DNA of 59,806 bases, taken from Terriglobia bacterium. Its GTDB lineage: Bacteria; Acidobacteriota; Terriglobia; Bryobacterales; Bryobacteraceae. The DNA lies in contig JANYDS010000024.1 of the NCBI GenBank assembly GCA_025363475.1, forward strand, positions 1 to 59,806, written 5' to 3'. The notes under the pieces were generated by a model. The model searched no databases. It had not been told where the DNA came from and saw only the letters and a list, made by a program, of their open reading frames with translations. Below are positions 41,972 to 59,806 of this stretch, piece by piece. The position numbers were made by a program, and so were the translations under genes. Every line of letters starts with the position of its first letter. Within the stretch, counting starts at the first letter, position 1.

Positions 41972-42451
41972 GTTTATTGTCTCCTTATAATGATTATATA
42001 AAGAATAATTAGCTTTTATGTCCGTAATGGGAATGTACACCAGCGACCATTTCGGTTTGGTTACAGGCCGGGGCATCGAGTAACGTTCGGAGCATTAGCA
42101 GGGACCCTGTTTCACTGGTGTCCGGTTAAGTAGCAGGGAACCTGCGGCGAGGGCACCGGAAATGACTACCCCAAGCCAAACCGCGCGGCCTCCAGGACCA
42201 CCGCGGCTGGGGGACACGCTCTTGCGGATGTCATCTTTAACTACTTATTATTTAGTGAGTAAATTCAAAATCAAATGCCAAATATTGTCAAAAAAACGGC
42301 TTCGAAAAACCCTGCTTCTCAATCTCCCCGCGAAACTGACGGCGTTTTTTTAGGTGTCGAAGAAGCTGCCCATCGATACCATCTATGCCCCAATTGAAGA
42401 CGGAGGCCGAAGGGGAGTGTCGACGGAGGGTAAGGGACCCGCCGTCCATTT
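41972..42451. other. Intergenic stretch without recognised gene
   Basis: Apart from the promoter/leader of the PEP-CTERM gene (TATAAT and AAGGAGA on the minus strand, 41972-42005) and a solo IS-end-like repeat, nothing coding is convincing. A 63-codon plus-strand frame at 42162 has no family resemblance and an AT-rich 3' half. Confidence 0.5.
42097..42144. repeat. IS-end-like sequence within a short direct repeat
   Basis: CACTGGTGTCCGG at 42113-42125 is identical to the first 13 bases of the IS4 element's left end (57092-57104). It lies between two copies of AGCAGGGA(C/A)CCTG (42097-42109 and 42132-42144), 35 bases apart. No transposase relic was recognised beside it. Confidence 0.45.
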
Positions 42452-54254: not shown

Positions 54255-54794
54255 GTGGGGGCTTTGCATTCTATAAAAGCTGCAGACTGGATTGCCGTCG
54301 CCCAGCTGGGCAAAGCACGCGGAATTCGTGGGGAAGTGATCGGCTATTCCCTCACCAGCCACCCGGAACGCTTCTCCCGCCTCAAATCCGTCCGGCTGGT
54401 GGGTGACGCTCCTTTCATCACTCGCACCCTTGATGTGGAGGAGGTGTGGGAACACGCAGGTGCGCTGGTTTTCAAGTTCGCCGGAATCGATTCGATGACG
54501 GACGCAGAGACTTTACGCGGTGCCGAGGTGCAGATTCCGGGCAGCGAACGCATTCAACTGGAGCCGGGCGAATATTTTCATGCGGACCTGATCGGGTGCG
54601 AAGTGCGTGACCGCGTGTCAAATCACCTCATCGGTACGGTCACGGCTTTTGAGGAAAATGCCGGTCAGCCTCTACTTGAGATTGACCGGGGCAAGACGCT
54701 CATTCCATTTGTGAAAGCCCTGTGTACGGACATCCGCCCCGCGGATAAAATCATCCTGACTGACCTTCCGGAGGGTCTGGAGGACCTCAGGTGA
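54255..54794 (+). CDS. rimM: 16S rRNA processing protein RimM
   Basis: Helps assembly of the 30S subunit near S19. The 179-residue product has the N-terminal RimM domain (VAQLGKARGIRGEVIGYS) and the C-terminal PRC-barrel (GEYFHADLIGCEV, TDIRPADKIILTDLPEGL). The GTG at 54255 is chosen because khpA ends at 54253; a TTG at 54264 is also possible. A longer frame beginning in khpA is unlikely. It overlaps trmD by four bases. Confidence 0.94.
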   Translation: MGALHSIKAADWIAVAQLGKARGIRGEVIGYSLTSHPERFSRLKSVRLVGDAPFITRTLDVEEVWEHAGALVFKFAGIDSMTDAETLRGAEVQIPGSERIQLEPGEYFHADLIGCEVRDRVSNHLIGTVTAFEENAGQPLLEIDRGKTLIPFVKALCTDIRPADKIILTDLPEGLEDLR

Positions 54795-55468
54795 AGTTCC
54801 ACCTGCTGACCATCTTCCCTGCCTTCTTCGACGGTCCGTTTCAGCATGGCGTTGTCGCACGTGGCGCTCAGTTTGGAAGTCTGGAACTGAAAGTTCACGA
54901 CCTGCGCAAATACACCCACGACCTGCACCGAACGGTTGATGACCGTCCGTTTGGCGGCGGCGAAGGGATGCTGCTGAAGCCCGAACCTTTGTTCGATGCC
55001 GTGGAAGATATCTGGCCTGAACGTACCCCGCAACGGCGCGTGATTCTGCTTTCAGCTTCGGGGCGCAAATTCACGCAGCAAGTTGCGCGCGAGTTGCTGC
55101 AATACGAGGAACTGCTGTTTATCTGCGGACGCTACGAGGGTGTCGATGAACGCGTGGCCGAGCACCTGGCGGATGAGGAACTATCGATTGGCGATTACGT
55201 TCTGAGCGGTGGCGAACTGGCGGCTGCCGTCATCGTGGATTCAGTCGCGCGATTGTTACCCGGGGTGGTGGGAAACGCAGATTCTACTGTGAATGAATCC
55301 TTCGAAGACGGCCTGCTGGATTGTCCGCAGTGGACCCGGCCCGCAGAGTTTCGCGGCTGGAAAGTGCCTGAAGTTCTGTTGGGCGGCAACCACGCTGAGA
55401 TCAAAAAATGGCGGAAGCAGGCAGCCCGTGAAAAGACCGCCCGCTTCCGCCCTGATTTACTTGCTTAG
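54791..55468 (+). CDS. trmD: tRNA (guanine-N1)-methyltransferase TrmD
   Basis: Methylates G37 of tRNAs to stop frameshifting. The 225-residue product has the trefoil-knot SPOUT fold with VDDRPFGGGEGM, ICGRYEGVDERV, LSIGDYVLSGGELAA and the C-terminal VLLGGNHAEIKKWR. The GTG start overlaps rimM. The usual next gene, rplS, is absent; the convergent TIGR03437-type gene ends three bases after. Confidence 0.96.
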   Translation: MKFHLLTIFPAFFDGPFQHGVVARGAQFGSLELKVHDLRKYTHDLHRTVDDRPFGGGEGMLLKPEPLFDAVEDIWPERTPQRRVILLSASGRKFTQQVARELLQYEELLFICGRYEGVDERVAEHLADEELSIGDYVLSGGELAAAVIVDSVARLLPGVVGNADSTVNESFEDGLLDCPQWTRPAEFRGWKVPEVLLGGNHAEIKKWRKQAAREKTARFRPDLLA

Positions 55469-55471
55469 ACG

Positions 55472-57085
55472 TTACTTCATACTCGCGATCACCTCAGTGG
55501 CATTGTCAGCCTGAAGGATCACGGCATCCATGCCCGGTACGAGAAGAGGAACCTGGCTGTTATTTCCGATCACCGTGACGTTCGCAAAGGCCCCCGCGCC
55601 TGCGGGCATGGCCAGCAGAACACTGGGCGGAACAGTCAGACTGCCTGCGCTCACCGGACCCGCGCAATCAGCCTCAACTTCCAGCTGAACACCATTCTGG
55701 TTAATCCTGGTGCTCACTAAGACGTCGACAAAACCATCCGGGTCGCCGCCATTCCAGCGGACTGTGAGCGGCTGAGTACGATCAATTACGGAACCCGAAA
55801 TGATGGCCAGATTACTCCAGTTCAGCTGAGGCTGGAGGGTAAAGGCTGTTGAGAATGCGCCCAGGTCTGGTCCGCCGGTACCGGTGATAGTGACGACGCC
55901 TGACTGGTAGGAGTTGAGAACGCCTGAATACGTTCCATCGGTGCCTCCCGAAGCAAGGCTGATAGCGGAGCCGTTGGGCTGGGTCAGGGTGAGAATCGAG
56001 CCGGCGTTCACGAGCCGCGCGACGGCGAAGAGCGAATTGTCCTCAGTCCGCTGACCTTTAATAACAGTAACGGTGCAGCTCCCGGGTGTAACGGTAGCGA
56101 CCGCGCTCAGGAGCAGCGGAAAATTTACCTGATCGAGACCGATCAGCACAACCCCTGCCGAGTTGGTTCTGACTGCTTTACCGTCCTGATTGAAGGTGTT
56201 GGACACTTGCTGTTCGTACTGAAAAGCACCGACCTTGATGGAACTTTTGTTTTGGAGGACAGAAATTTGCGCGTTGGTGAGGTTGGCATTGGCGTTGGCG
56301 CAGGCTCCGCCTGAGGCAGAAACGGGAATCGTTGTATTGTTGCTGACCAGTGTGCCCGTCTGAATGACGAGCGATACCCCGCACCCGGGGCCAACGCCCG
56401 GCGGAACGATGAAGTTGATCTGATCAAGGCCAGCGTAACCGGACCGGCCGCGGTAGAACGGGATAACTGCAACACCTCCGACGTAGATGGTAATTTTGGT
56501 CCCCAAATCCGCCACCGTTGGAGGGTTGGCGTCGCTGGTTGAGATGGGGCCCAGCCCGGTGGCCCAGATAATCAGCGCGTCTCCTGCTTTGGCAGATTTG
56601 GTTGAGGTCAGCGCAGAGTAATCGCCAAAAGTCACGACACCCGGACCGCTGCCACTGAGGTTCGCGGTGTAGATACCAACGTTGCTGGCCACTACGGTAA
56701 CTGCGCTGGTCGCGGAAGCACCACCGAACTTGACGGTGACCGTGCCGGTTCCCACAGGGGTATTCGACGGAAGAATCGCCGCAAGCTGGCTTGCGACTGT
56801 GTAAAACATGGGGGCCTGGACCGTAATCGCTCCCACCGTTACGTCGACGGTGGTGCCGCCGAGTTGTGTCGGCAGGGGCAGGGGTGCCGCCAAAAGTGTG
56901 GCAGGCCCGAGGCCGCTGCCAAAGACGTTAAAGATCGCCCCCTGGGCAAGCGCGCCGTTGGGCGTTCCGGGCGGCAAAAGACTCGCCGAATTCACAACTC
57001 CGGTAATAGCGGGCGCAGCATACAGGCAGCCCGACCAAAGCGCAATAGCAACAATGAGTCTCAACTCTGTTCGCATATTGGCCAT
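55472..57085 (-). CDS. TIGR03437/Soli_cterm exported protein
   Basis: A secreted protein of about 537 residues with a signal peptide (LIVAIALWSGCLYAAP) and the acidobacterial TIGR03437 pattern early (ITGVVNSASLLPPG, then VFGSGLGPA, QLAAILPSNTPVG, and GPGVVTFGDYSA). Beta-rich repeats continue to the C-terminus. The family is of unknown function. Starts at 57085 or 57076 are best; a longer frame from 57094 would use bases of an IS end. The IS4 element lies six bases upstream, with no visible ribosome-binding site left. Confidence 0.8.
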   Translation of the reverse strand: MANMRTELRLIVAIALWSGCLYAAPAITGVVNSASLLPPGTPNGALAQGAIFNVFGSGLGPATLLAAPLPLPTQLGGTTVDVTVGAITVQAPMFYTVASQLAAILPSNTPVGTGTVTVKFGGASATSAVTVVASNVGIYTANLSGSGPGVVTFGDYSALTSTKSAKAGDALIIWATGLGPISTSDANPPTVADLGTKITIYVGGVAVIPFYRGRSGYAGLDQINFIVPPGVGPGCGVSLVIQTGTLVSNNTTIPVSASGGACANANANLTNAQISVLQNKSSIKVGAFQYEQQVSNTFNQDGKAVRTNSAGVVLIGLDQVNFPLLLSAVATVTPGSCTVTVIKGQRTEDNSLFAVARLVNAGSILTLTQPNGSAISLASGGTDGTYSGVLNSYQSGVVTITGTGGPDLGAFSTAFTLQPQLNWSNLAIISGSVIDRTQPLTVRWNGGDPDGFVDVLVSTRINQNGVQLEVEADCAGPVSAGSLTVPPSVLLAMPAGAGAFANVTVIGNNSQVPLLVPGMDAVILQADNATEVIASMK

Positions 57086-57104
57086 CAGATACACTGGTGT
57101 CCGG

Positions 57105-58294
57105 CTACAAGTCGAGCAGGCTCAGTTGGTTGAAAAATACCTCTGATTTTTCGTGGGGGCGAACCTCGCCGCAGGCCCGTAAAATTGGCGTTTTCTCGAA
57201 GAGGTTGAGGCTGAGTACCTGTAGGATTTCATGGAGCGACGCATTATTTCATGGAGCGACGCATTAAGGAGCAGGCGCTTCTTGAGGATGGCGATTAATA
57301 CGTAAGAGGCCACGGCTATCCATATCTGGGTTTTGACGGCATTCTCGCTGTAGCGATAAAAGGCCTTGATCCGGAGGTGTTGTTTGATCCAGTTGAAGAA
57401 GAGTTCGATGCGCCACCGGGACTTATAAAGCTGCGCGATGGTGAGGGCTGGCAACTCGAAATTATTGGTTAAGAAAATAAACCGGCGGTTTGTTTCCGGA
57501 TCGACAAAGCGGACGCGGCGGAGTGTATCAGGATAGTTTCTGGCTGAGCCGTCGGTTCCGAGGAGCACCGTTTGGTCCAACGAGACGCCGGTACCCGGAG
57601 GCACCGCGTGGGAGTATCGGCGATTCAGAACAACGCCGGGCTTGGTGCGCGTGACAAAGAAAGCGCCGGTGCGATGAAAGGAGTGCAGACGCTTGAAGCC
57701 AAGCTAGGCGCGGTCCATGACATAGAAGGCTCCGGGTTCTGCGGCGATTTCGTCCAGCAGGTTGACGTCATGACGTTTTCCATCGGAAACCTCAATGAAA
57801 GTGGGGATTGAACCGCGCAGATCCAGCAGAGTGTGCATCTTCACCGCAGCCTTTTGCTGACGAAAGTGCGCCCATGGAAAAACAGAGAGGCAGAGATCGA
57901 TAGTGGTCGAGTCCAGTGCGTACACGGTGGCTTCGAGATCAATGCCGAAAGGATCGGACGCATACATCGGACGGGCGATATGAATGAGTGCCTGAGCGAA
58001 GTCGGCGTAAATGCGCCAGTCGCGGTTCTCATTGGCTTCGGCCAGCGTCGAACGCGCAATGTGCCCACGAAAGCCGAGATGATAGAGCTTCTCGGGCACT
58101 GAACGCAGACACGCTTCGATGTCGCGCAGGCTCTCGCGAAAAGTTAATTGCGCGAAACTCATGCACAAAAACTGGTCACGGCAGGAAAAGCCACGCGATT
58201 TATAATCGCCTCCGCAGCGTGCCACACATTTCTGGAATTCGTGGATCGGCAGGTGTTCCATCACCTGGGAGAAAACCAGCTTGCCTGTGTACAT
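57105..58294 (-). pseudogene. IS4-family transposase with a stop codon and a 20-base duplication
   Basis: A DDE transposase of about 390 codons. The catalytic residues are visible: Asp in VYALDSTTIDL, Asp in FYVMDRA and Glu in YKSRWRIELFFNWIKQH with the YREK pattern. A TAG at 57704-57706 follows MDRA, where the family usually has a tyrosine; the same frame continues LGFKRLHSFHRTGAFFV. Near the 3' end a 20-base tandem duplication (57226-57265) shifts the frame; removing one copy restores a tail ending in QLSLLDL at 57105. Both lesions make it non-functional. The ATG at 58294 is preferred over one at 58327. Confidence 0.85.
57226..57265. repeat. Perfect 20-base tandem duplication inside the transposase
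   Basis: ATTTCATGGAGCGACGCATT occurs twice without gap. Because 20 is not a multiple of three, it shifts the transposase frame. Such duplications fit slippage or repair errors. Confidence 0.95.
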
Positions 58295-58554
58295 GGCCCA
58301 TTGTCTTCGAGGTGCTCCCCCTGCCATCCTGGCGGCGAAACACCTAAAAAAAGTCCAAGTCGAAAAATCTGGAAACAGGGCCTATCTATCAGATAACGCG
58401 TAGGTTGTGCGGCTTACTCTCAGCCGTAACCGGACAGCAGTGTAGGGGAAGAGTATTATTACACGAGGCGGAGAAATTGTCTAGTTTGTACACAAACCAT
58501 TAATAATCAATGAGTTACGCAACATTTCCGGATAACGTTGATCTCAGGACGTGG

Positions 58555-58914
58555 TTATTTCAGAATTGCTGTACAAGCATCTTTGACAGCATTCCCCAAG
58601 CTCCTCGTCGAGTGCGAAAACAACAGATCACCGTCAGTTTTGAACACCGCGATTTTGTTATCCTTCATCGCGTATCCTTTTCCACCCTCGTGATCAAACA
58701 ATACGATGTATTCAGCTTTGGCCTTGTCGGAGGTGATGGTAACCTCCGGACAGCGCTCGGCGAAGGTCTTCATAATCTCGACAGTTTGGCCTCTGGCCCC
58801 ACCAGAAGAAGAGCCATGTGCGGACCCAGTCCCCTTGCCCGTCGATCGATAGATGCCCGAGATGCCCAACCCGCCGCCGTCAGACCCGCCTCGACACGAA
58901 GCAGATGTCAACAT
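58555..58914 (-). CDS. Small conserved protein with Gly/Ser-rich N-terminus
   Basis: A 119-residue frame. The first 45 residues are glycine/serine-rich; the rest (VEIMKTFAERCPEVTITS, then YIVLFDHEGGKGYAMKDNKIAVF and SLGNAVKDACTAI) looks like a compact conserved domain seen in exported acidobacterial proteins of unknown function. A signal peptide is missing, so the 5' end may have been lost. A TAG upstream in frame closes it. Confidence 0.6.
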   Translation of the reverse strand: MLTSASCRGGSDGGGLGISGIYRSTGKGTGSAHGSSSGGARGQTVEIMKTFAERCPEVTITSDKAKAEYIVLFDHEGGKGYAMKDNKIAVFKTDGDLLFSHSTRSLGNAVKDACTAILK

Positions 58915-59243
58915 GGCTGCACCATCCTAGTGCAAGTTCCAAGTGATGACCAGACGTCGAAAATGTGTTGCCATTGAGGTCATTAGCGGTGCGAAACTGT
59001 CGCGCAACCCGAGCGGCATCCGGTTAACCTCAGCACCCTATTCATACCGATTTCACGTCGTCTGATTCGACGCAAAGCCGCCAGCGCAAGCTCCGGGTCA
59101 TCCACAGAAGACTTCATGGCAGAAGACTGCATGGCAGAAGAAGACTGCATGACAGAATTGTGATGCGAGGAGCATGTTGTGTGCCGCGCACCATTGGCCC
59201 GCCCCCACGCCCAGTCCGGCTGCTCGAACCAATTGATTGCTGA
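58915..59243. other. Non-coding stretch with a tandem repeat
   Basis: No gene was recognised. Three copies of a 15-base unit (AGAAGACTGCATGGC, with changes) occur at 59106-59120, 59121-59135 and 59139-59153, the last after a three-base AGA insert. This is also where any junction to the foreign-looking lpxC would lie. Confidence 0.6.
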
Positions 59244-59806
59244 CTATTCGCCCGCTGCCATGGCGTAGCCGCTGACACGCATCGCCGGCTCGCGCAGGCG
59301 CGGAGCTTGGACCATGGCCCAGGCGCTGGTGTCGGCGAGGAGGGCTTTCAGGACGTGGGCGTTCAGACGATGGCCGCCGCGAACCGAGCGATAAGCGCCG
59401 AGAATCTGGAAGCCGGCCAGAGCGAGATCGCCGACCGCATCGAGCATCTTGTGACGCACGAACTCATGCTTGAAGCGAAGGCCTTCCTGATTGAGGATTT
59501 TGTCGTCGCCAATGGCGACCGTGTTCTCAAGCGAGGCACCGAGAGCCAAGCCGGCCTTCCACAGCTTCTCGACGTCGTGCATGAAGCCGAATGTCCGCGC
59601 GCTGGCGATCTCGTTGCGGAATACACCCGGCGACATTTCGAGGCTGAGACGCTGACGGCCGATCACGGTCGAAGCGAAATCGATCTCGACGTCGAGATGG
59701 AAACCCGAATGCGGCGTCAACTCACCCCAGCAACCGCCTTCCTCGACCCGGATCGGCTTCAAAACCTTGATGTAGCGGCGGGGCTCCGACAATTCCCGGA
59801 TGCCGG
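59244..59806 (-). CDS. lpxC: LpxC UDP-3-O-acyl-GlcNAc deacetylase, 5' end missing, alphaproteobacterial type
   Basis: The C-terminal 187 residues of the zinc deacetylase that commits lipid A synthesis. The zinc/catalytic motifs HKMLDAVGDLAL and GGHRLN are present. The frame is open past the right edge. The sequence (RARTFGFM-type ARTFGFMHDVEKLWKAG, LGASLENTVAIGD, RGGHRLNAHVL) matches alphaproteobacterial LpxC far better than acidobacterial ones I remember. It could be a contig misjoin, contamination or a transferred gene. Confidence 0.9.
   Translation of the reverse strand, partial: GIRELSEPRRYIKVLKPIRVEEGGCWGELTPHSGFHLDVEIDFASTVIGRQRLSLEMSPGVFRNEIASARTFGFMHDVEKLWKAGLALGASLENTVAIGDDKILNQEGLRFKHEFVRHKMLDAVGDLALAGFQILGAYRSVRGGHRLNAHVLKALLADTSAWAMVQAPRLREPAMRVSGYAMAAGE

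Follow-up and report, generated by a model that had tools for sequence, protein, structure and literature searches.

A probable chimeric end on an acidobacterial contig: an alphaproteobacterial lpxC fragment beyond a recurring IS4-type insertion sequence

The closest described counterparts of the contig end analyzed here are the chimeric inter-genome contigs of short-read metagenomes. In one benchmark, chimeric contigs per genome are given as 22.15 for MEGAHIT and 2.63 for SPAdes (PMC11261854). A second report describes species of low to intermediate coverage as likelier to occur in chimeric contigs with all assemblers, and MEGAHIT as not the worst assembler for chimeric contigs at low coverage (PMC7881036). 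The window, by which we mean the whole of contig C12 (59,806 bases, containing no N), likewise combines two genomes, with a short foreign piece at its end near a repeat. As in the described cases, it sits in a bin of low estimated contamination (96 contigs, 4.16 Mb, 96.34% complete and 0.18% contaminated). It differs from them in that the join can be placed only to within a range of up to 800 bases.

Two further known systems meet at this contig end. The first is the LpxC protein of Hyphomicrobiaceae type. The window holds the C-terminal ~60% of such a protein, 80% identical to its nearest relative and followed, as in the relatives, by a spacer; the N-terminal ~40% is missing where the contig ends, and bamD is not next to it. 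The second is the group of IS4-family elements with a DUF4372 N-terminal domain. The window element shares with these a DDE transposase, terminal inverted repeats and further pieces elsewhere in the genome, and differs from them in having its transposase broken into two ORFs and in lacking an exact target-site duplication. The features that concern us, all within the last 5.1 kb of the window, are as follows.

54791..55468, plus strand: trmD, the native anchor (profile matches; gene order in the same-genus genome G002)
55472..57094, minus strand: Soli_cterm-domain gene adjoining the insertion sequence (TIGR03437, E 1.6e-41)
57092..58442, minus strand: broken IS4-type insertion sequence (transposase in two ORFs; terminal inverted repeats)
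58443..58554, no strand: AT-rich stretch (GC 0.40) to the right of the insertion sequence, the first bases off the suggested native gene order
58555..58914, minus strand: ORF for the C-terminal part of a longer protein (matches in some relatives of the bin)
58915..59243, no strand: spacer downstream of the lpxC fragment (similarity and composition comparisons)
59244..59806 (ORF 59244-59804), minus strand: 3' part of an alphaproteobacterial, Hyphomicrobiaceae-type lpxC (Pfam, identity, tree and composition)

The lpxC fragment and its relatives

The lpxC open frame (59244-59804, minus strand) encodes 186 amino acids and runs off the contig end. It matches positions 112-267 of the 268 in the Pfam LpxC profile PF03331 (E 8.5e-57), scoring 193.1 bits against a curated cut-off of 27. 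The score against NCBIfam TIGR00325 is 180.9, slightly under the cut-off of 187.25, as is expected for a fragment. The fragment retains the HKMLDAVGD and RGGH stretches of the C-terminal part, which we take to contribute to the zinc site and the catalytic residues; the N-terminal histidine of the zinc site presumably lies beyond the contig end. The second native flank of the gene is absent, the contig stopping inside the coding sequence, and the other half of the gene was not found in the bin.

A scan of genome contigs with the fragment returned 67 relatives in 119 stretches, the best of which is the one at 80% identity. By record title, 65 of the 67 are from alphaproteobacterial taxa and the other two are called only 'Proteobacteria bacterium'; no acidobacterial title occurs among the 67, in a scan that is biased toward close relatives. 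One of the loci, L015, belongs to a genome (G061, titled 'Devosia equisanguinis') that lies in one family with the Hyphomicrobium genomes G063 and G065, and it is on this basis that we use the label Hyphomicrobiaceae type. The order of G061 was taken as Hyphomicrobiales. Within its family, 97 of 103 genomes match a DNA query holding the fragment, with 66-80% identity over the lpxC part, and the same search gave a short second match in two genomes. Three metagenome bins titled Devosia equisanguinis (L015, L020 and L023) carry an LpxC of Hyphomicrobiaceae type, and these titles may be wrong.

The acidobacterial homologs are far more distant from the fragment. Our use of the label acidobacterial for the bin and its relatives follows from the Soli_cterm domain (TIGR03437) and from the first-pass annotation. 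LpxC matches to it were found in 28 of 31 genomes comprising the bin and its relatives. With the window excluded, the near-full-length matches among these are 34-42% identical to the fragment, and a 64-residue partial match in genome G008 is 52% identical. Across the phylum of the bin, 372 of 396 genomes (its own included) have an LpxC match, and the highest identity among the matches listed is 48%, again leaving out the window itself. The host bin has its own lpxC on contig C79, and this is 39% identical to the window fragment. We built a tree of 64 rows and 177 columns, using rows of our own selection, each trimmed to the part alignable with the fragment. A 100/99 branch separates 26 acidobacterial from 37 proteobacterial rows; the fragment groups with four alphaproteobacterial rows (98/88) on a short end branch of 0.098, and the lpxC on C79 falls inside its own genus.

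We also compared composition by fifth-order Markov models, one side trained on 20 host pieces and the leftmost 57 kb of the window, the other on 20 pieces from G061 and related genomes. The lpxC piece scores +23.6, next to a mean of +24.0 for held-out alphaproteobacterial segments, and the step from the host mean of -24.8 constitutes an abrupt change of composition on contig C12. None of 574 held-out host segments of the same length scores as high, and the bin's own lpxC, at -23.2, is in the host-like range. For 5578 tiles of 563 bases, drawn from the window together with 1.55 Mb sampled from the bin, the top score is 14.4 (on contig C52), in a scan that used the same pieces for both training and scoring; the C12 tile straddling the spacer and lpxC scores 3.4.

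The LpxC fragment is alphaproteobacterial and of Hyphomicrobiaceae type, and contig C12 carries two stretches of differing taxonomic placement, LpxC and the rest. The first-pass annotation had read the fragment as a Rhizobiales-type LpxC. The contig scan, the family search and the tree bear this out, the nearest kin being of Hyphomicrobiaceae type in the order now called Hyphomicrobiales. The same annotation had named placement in a tree as a check, and when this was carried out the fragment fell among the alphaproteobacterial and not the acidobacterial rows.

The insertion sequence and the native gene order

The transposase of the IS4-type element gives matches to DUF4372 plus DDE_Tnp_1 and to IS4_1, spread over two ORFs. 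The element has terminal inverted repeats beginning at 57092 and at 58442 that, compared by eye, are alike in 14 of their first 16 bases. No exact target-site duplication is present at the window copy, nor in any of six pairings of the IS flanks. A partial likeness between the left flank in the window and the right flank on contig C44 was rejected as evidence of such a duplication. This lack of a duplication does not decide between the readings considered below, given a window copy that is broken and perhaps old.

The element recurs in the bin. Its left part lies at the end of contig C76, other pieces are on C23, C58, C60, C89 and C93, and both C44 and C45 start with its last 121 bases. Over these 121 bases the window copy and the C44 and C45 copies show two differences, and from 58443 onward all three flanks diverge. 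The element was not found in 14 same-genus stretches or in a small sample of 87 alphaproteobacterial loci. Within the window copy a 20-base unit, identified by eye, stands twice in tandem at 57226-57265; the copy at the end of C76, which is 94% identical, aligns 417 bases to 438 of the window, consistent with one 20-base unit fewer. A lone CACTGGTGTCCGGTTA at 42113, far from the element, resembles the terminal repeat and may be the relic of a copy or a short non-autonomous element.

To the left of the element, the trmD gene provides a native anchor. It was found in all 19 genomes of the genus that were searched. In many bacteria trmD is followed by rplS. In the window rplS is not next after trmD, and the content of this position differs among 14 same-genus genomes. 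We compared 4 to 19 kb downstream of trmD from these 14, out of 18 other genomes of the genus. In one of them, G002, the gene next to trmD on its downstream side encodes a relative of a 412-amino-acid HEAT-repeat protein of contig C44 (48% identity over 334 residues), with the similarity starting ~125 bases past the trmD match. The other 13 gave no match to the C44 HEAT-repeat protein after trmD (1e-5), and no second copy of its gene was found in the sampled part of the bin.

C44 opens with the right end of the insertion sequence, continues with a partial Soli_cterm paralogue and then carries the HEAT-repeat gene. The paralogue part (C44:742-203) follows directly on the IS end, is C-terminal and has the same orientation as the Soli_cterm gene of the window, to which it is 42% identical over 181 residues; at 1e-8, nothing else in the sampled 1.55 Mb matched that gene. 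In other relatives the post-trmD stretch matches different contigs of the bin, in some cases strongly (G012 with C96, G001 with C26 and G013 with C52), so that the position after trmD is a variable spot and the case for C44 depends on G002. C44 is set apart from the other candidate neighbors by also starting with the right end of the insertion sequence. The native order suggested by this one relative would most simply be trmD, the Soli_cterm gene, the insertion sequence, the Soli_cterm paralogue and the HEAT-repeat gene, that is, the left part of C12 followed by C44. Given the IS right end at the start of C44 and the trmD-HEAT order in G002, the stretch 58443-59806 appears to continue the contig wrongly or by an alternative path. 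We consider it probable that C12 is a chimera in which this continuation was wrongly entered at the insertion sequence, the native one probably being C44.

The segment beyond the insertion sequence and the position of the join

The first part of this continuation, 58443-58914, has a composition that is ordinary for the host, with 51.6% of 574 host segments scoring as high and 0.17% of 589 alphaproteobacterial segments scoring as low. It contains a minus-strand ORF (58555-58914) of 119 amino acids, related to proteins of ~180-250 amino acids. Matches occur in 10 of 61 genomes comprising the bin and its relatives (its own genome included), with none in the other 18 genomes of the bin's genus. 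In the order of G061 there are none in 397 genomes, a set that contains no positive, though the query is positive among the bin relatives. All nine relatives compared have an N-terminal motif composed of FV, four or five residues and SWS, which in seven includes TESTSWSVSG. The window ORF has neither this motif nor any leader, and so seems to be cut on its 5' side near 58816-58914, where a second join may therefore lie. Plasmid and phage records were uninformative about the segment. Either 58443-58914 is host-like DNA, in which case a second join would connect it with the alphaproteobacterial part, or it came in together with that foreign piece. With this ORF N-terminally incomplete and no bamD following the lpxC fragment on C12, the region is tidy for neither genome.

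The host-like composition of the segment and the distribution of its ORF, which is found in bin relatives and in 0 of 397 genomes from the order of G061, could also be accommodated by one join inside 58816-59243, leaving only the last 560-990 bases foreign and C44 linked to another copy of the insertion sequence. Such a variant differs from the best explanation in detail and not in biology. We regard it as unlikely, as it is C44, and not the sequence from 58443 onward, that matches the post-trmD order in G002.

The spacer between the ORF and lpxC has a Markov score of -8.8, and about 1% of 594 alphaproteobacterial segments score as low. A host origin for it on grounds of composition was considered and dropped, since 18 of 65 stretches of 330 bases downstream of other lpxC loci score equally low, and composition is accordingly not diagnostic here. 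Local alignment of 58836-59246 gave nothing convincing, either against 59 alphaproteobacterial stretches downstream of lpxC (best z 3.8 among the 59) or against nine acidobacterial stretches upstream of relatives of the 58555-58914 ORF. A search with the spacer in the order of G061 found short matches in 4 of 397 genomes; the best, in G782, is a repeat within coding sequence and was put down to chance. The best change point in composition is at 59268, with an optimum that is broad leftward. The switch to alphaproteobacterial DNA is placed no finer than 58816-59243.

The first-pass annotation, which described 330 bases next to lpxC as holding no gene, needs some adjustment: the stretch is 329 bases long (58915-59243), and one ORF enters it, 58510-58977 on the plus strand, which is the only one of at least 60 amino acids to do so and overlaps the 58555-58914 ORF on the minus strand. 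At other lpxC loci the mechanically read start of a BamD-like ORF (two of which were checked as YfiO/BamD) is mostly ~200-400 bases downstream, and a geneless stretch of ~330 bases after lpxC is ordinary. The suggestion that this stretch marks the junction was not substantiated, since composition cannot assign the spacer and the gene order of one relative suggests that the native sequence is lost earlier, at the insertion sequence ending at 58442.

Origin of the contig end

Taking the two variants of the join together, we are confident that the right end of contig C12 is an assembly chimera. In our preferred version, the native sequence would extend past trmD and the Soli_cterm gene as far as an IS4-type element that recurs in the bin. 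There the assembler would have left the native path, which probably goes on in C44, for 58443-59806, a wrong continuation that would end in an lpxC piece from an unrelated Hyphomicrobiaceae-type bacterium. Most likely, a contig end lying in the repeat was extended with reads that came partly from other genomes. We infer an artificial join triggered by the repeat, and a donor that was a member of the community with no close kin in the collections searched.

The contig ends of the bin carry traces of the assembly process. At least 17 pairs of them share exactly 141 bases, which points to a de Bruijn graph built at k=141; the shared stretch is 108 bases in one further pair and 122 in another. MEGAHIT has 141 as its largest default k, from which we would guess it to be the assembler. 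The left end of C12 (1-141) shares exactly 141 bases with one end of contig C55, probably its true neighbor in the graph. At the right end, no other contig overlapping the join was found in the bin, and the join is thus not a visible branch of the graph. This speaks against the preferred version, as do the two base differences between the window's IS copy and those on C44 and C45, the host-like composition of 58443-58914, and a gene-order argument drawn from one relative at a variable spot. When the bin was searched with 6 kb from the nearest relative, spanning ftsA-ftsZ-lpxC, the only match was C12:59287-59786.

The first-pass annotation had offered a chimeric contig end or a recent transfer as explanations. 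These remain the pair to be weighed for an alphaproteobacterial LpxC in this position, and the evidence favors the chimera. A recent transfer would take the form of a composite transposon: two copies of the insertion sequence would enclose alphaproteobacterial cargo, the whole would lie between trmD and the HEAT-repeat gene, and the remaining cargo and the second copy would have failed to assemble. Such an arrangement is consistent with the window segment and C44 both lying beyond right IS ends, with flank counts that balance if one cargo end is unassembled, and with the host-like composition of the first 472 bases of the segment. It would likewise account for three right flanks, with a native C44 further on. 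The lpxC gene is also present on 65 of 72,556 plasmid records, though none of these reaches 60% identity and several are very large. Against transfer are the lack of further donor gene neighbors in the bin in the ftsA-ftsZ-lpxC search, the lack of an exact target-site duplication in the six flank pairings, the failure to find the element in the small sample of 87 alphaproteobacterial loci, and the retention by the bin of its own lpxC. We therefore think a transfer improbable. It is equally doubtful that we are dealing with an acidobacterium that has acquired a Hyphomicrobiaceae-type lpxC beside trmD and hence has two lipid A deacetylases of different phyla.

Searches for a route of entry were negative: no tRNA or Rfam element that could serve as an integration site was found within the window, no LpxC relative was confirmed in viral contigs, and there was no phage DNA match. 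A literature search found no paper that treats lpxC, lipid A and horizontal transfer in Acidobacteria together. Among the plasmid records with lpxC is NZ_AP026896.1, which is labelled an Aeromonas plasmid and lists only 18 features; a length of 4.94 Mb suggests a mislabelled chromosome.

That the fragment is not foreign at all, and instead represents an unusual acidobacterial paralogue, is scarcely credible, given that nothing except its position on C12 favors this and that its tree placement, identity and composition, and the lack of any LpxC above 48% among the phylum matches listed, save the 52% partial match of 64 residues in G008, all argue against it.

These considerations bear on how such bins are used. 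A bin with 0.18% estimated contamination can still hold a piece of a foreign gene, and contig ends adjoining insertion sequences merit suspicion. As a matter of quality control, 58443-59806 should be trimmed before lpxC genes are counted, before transfer into Acidobacteria is called, or before this LpxC is used as an acidobacterial sequence. Were the transfer true, the locus would be a candidate for movement of a lipid A enzyme between phyla alongside a retained native copy. On the chimeric reading that we prefer, the contig end is best filed as an artifact, a chimeric end to be trimmed from 58443, and adds no new biological feature to the organism.
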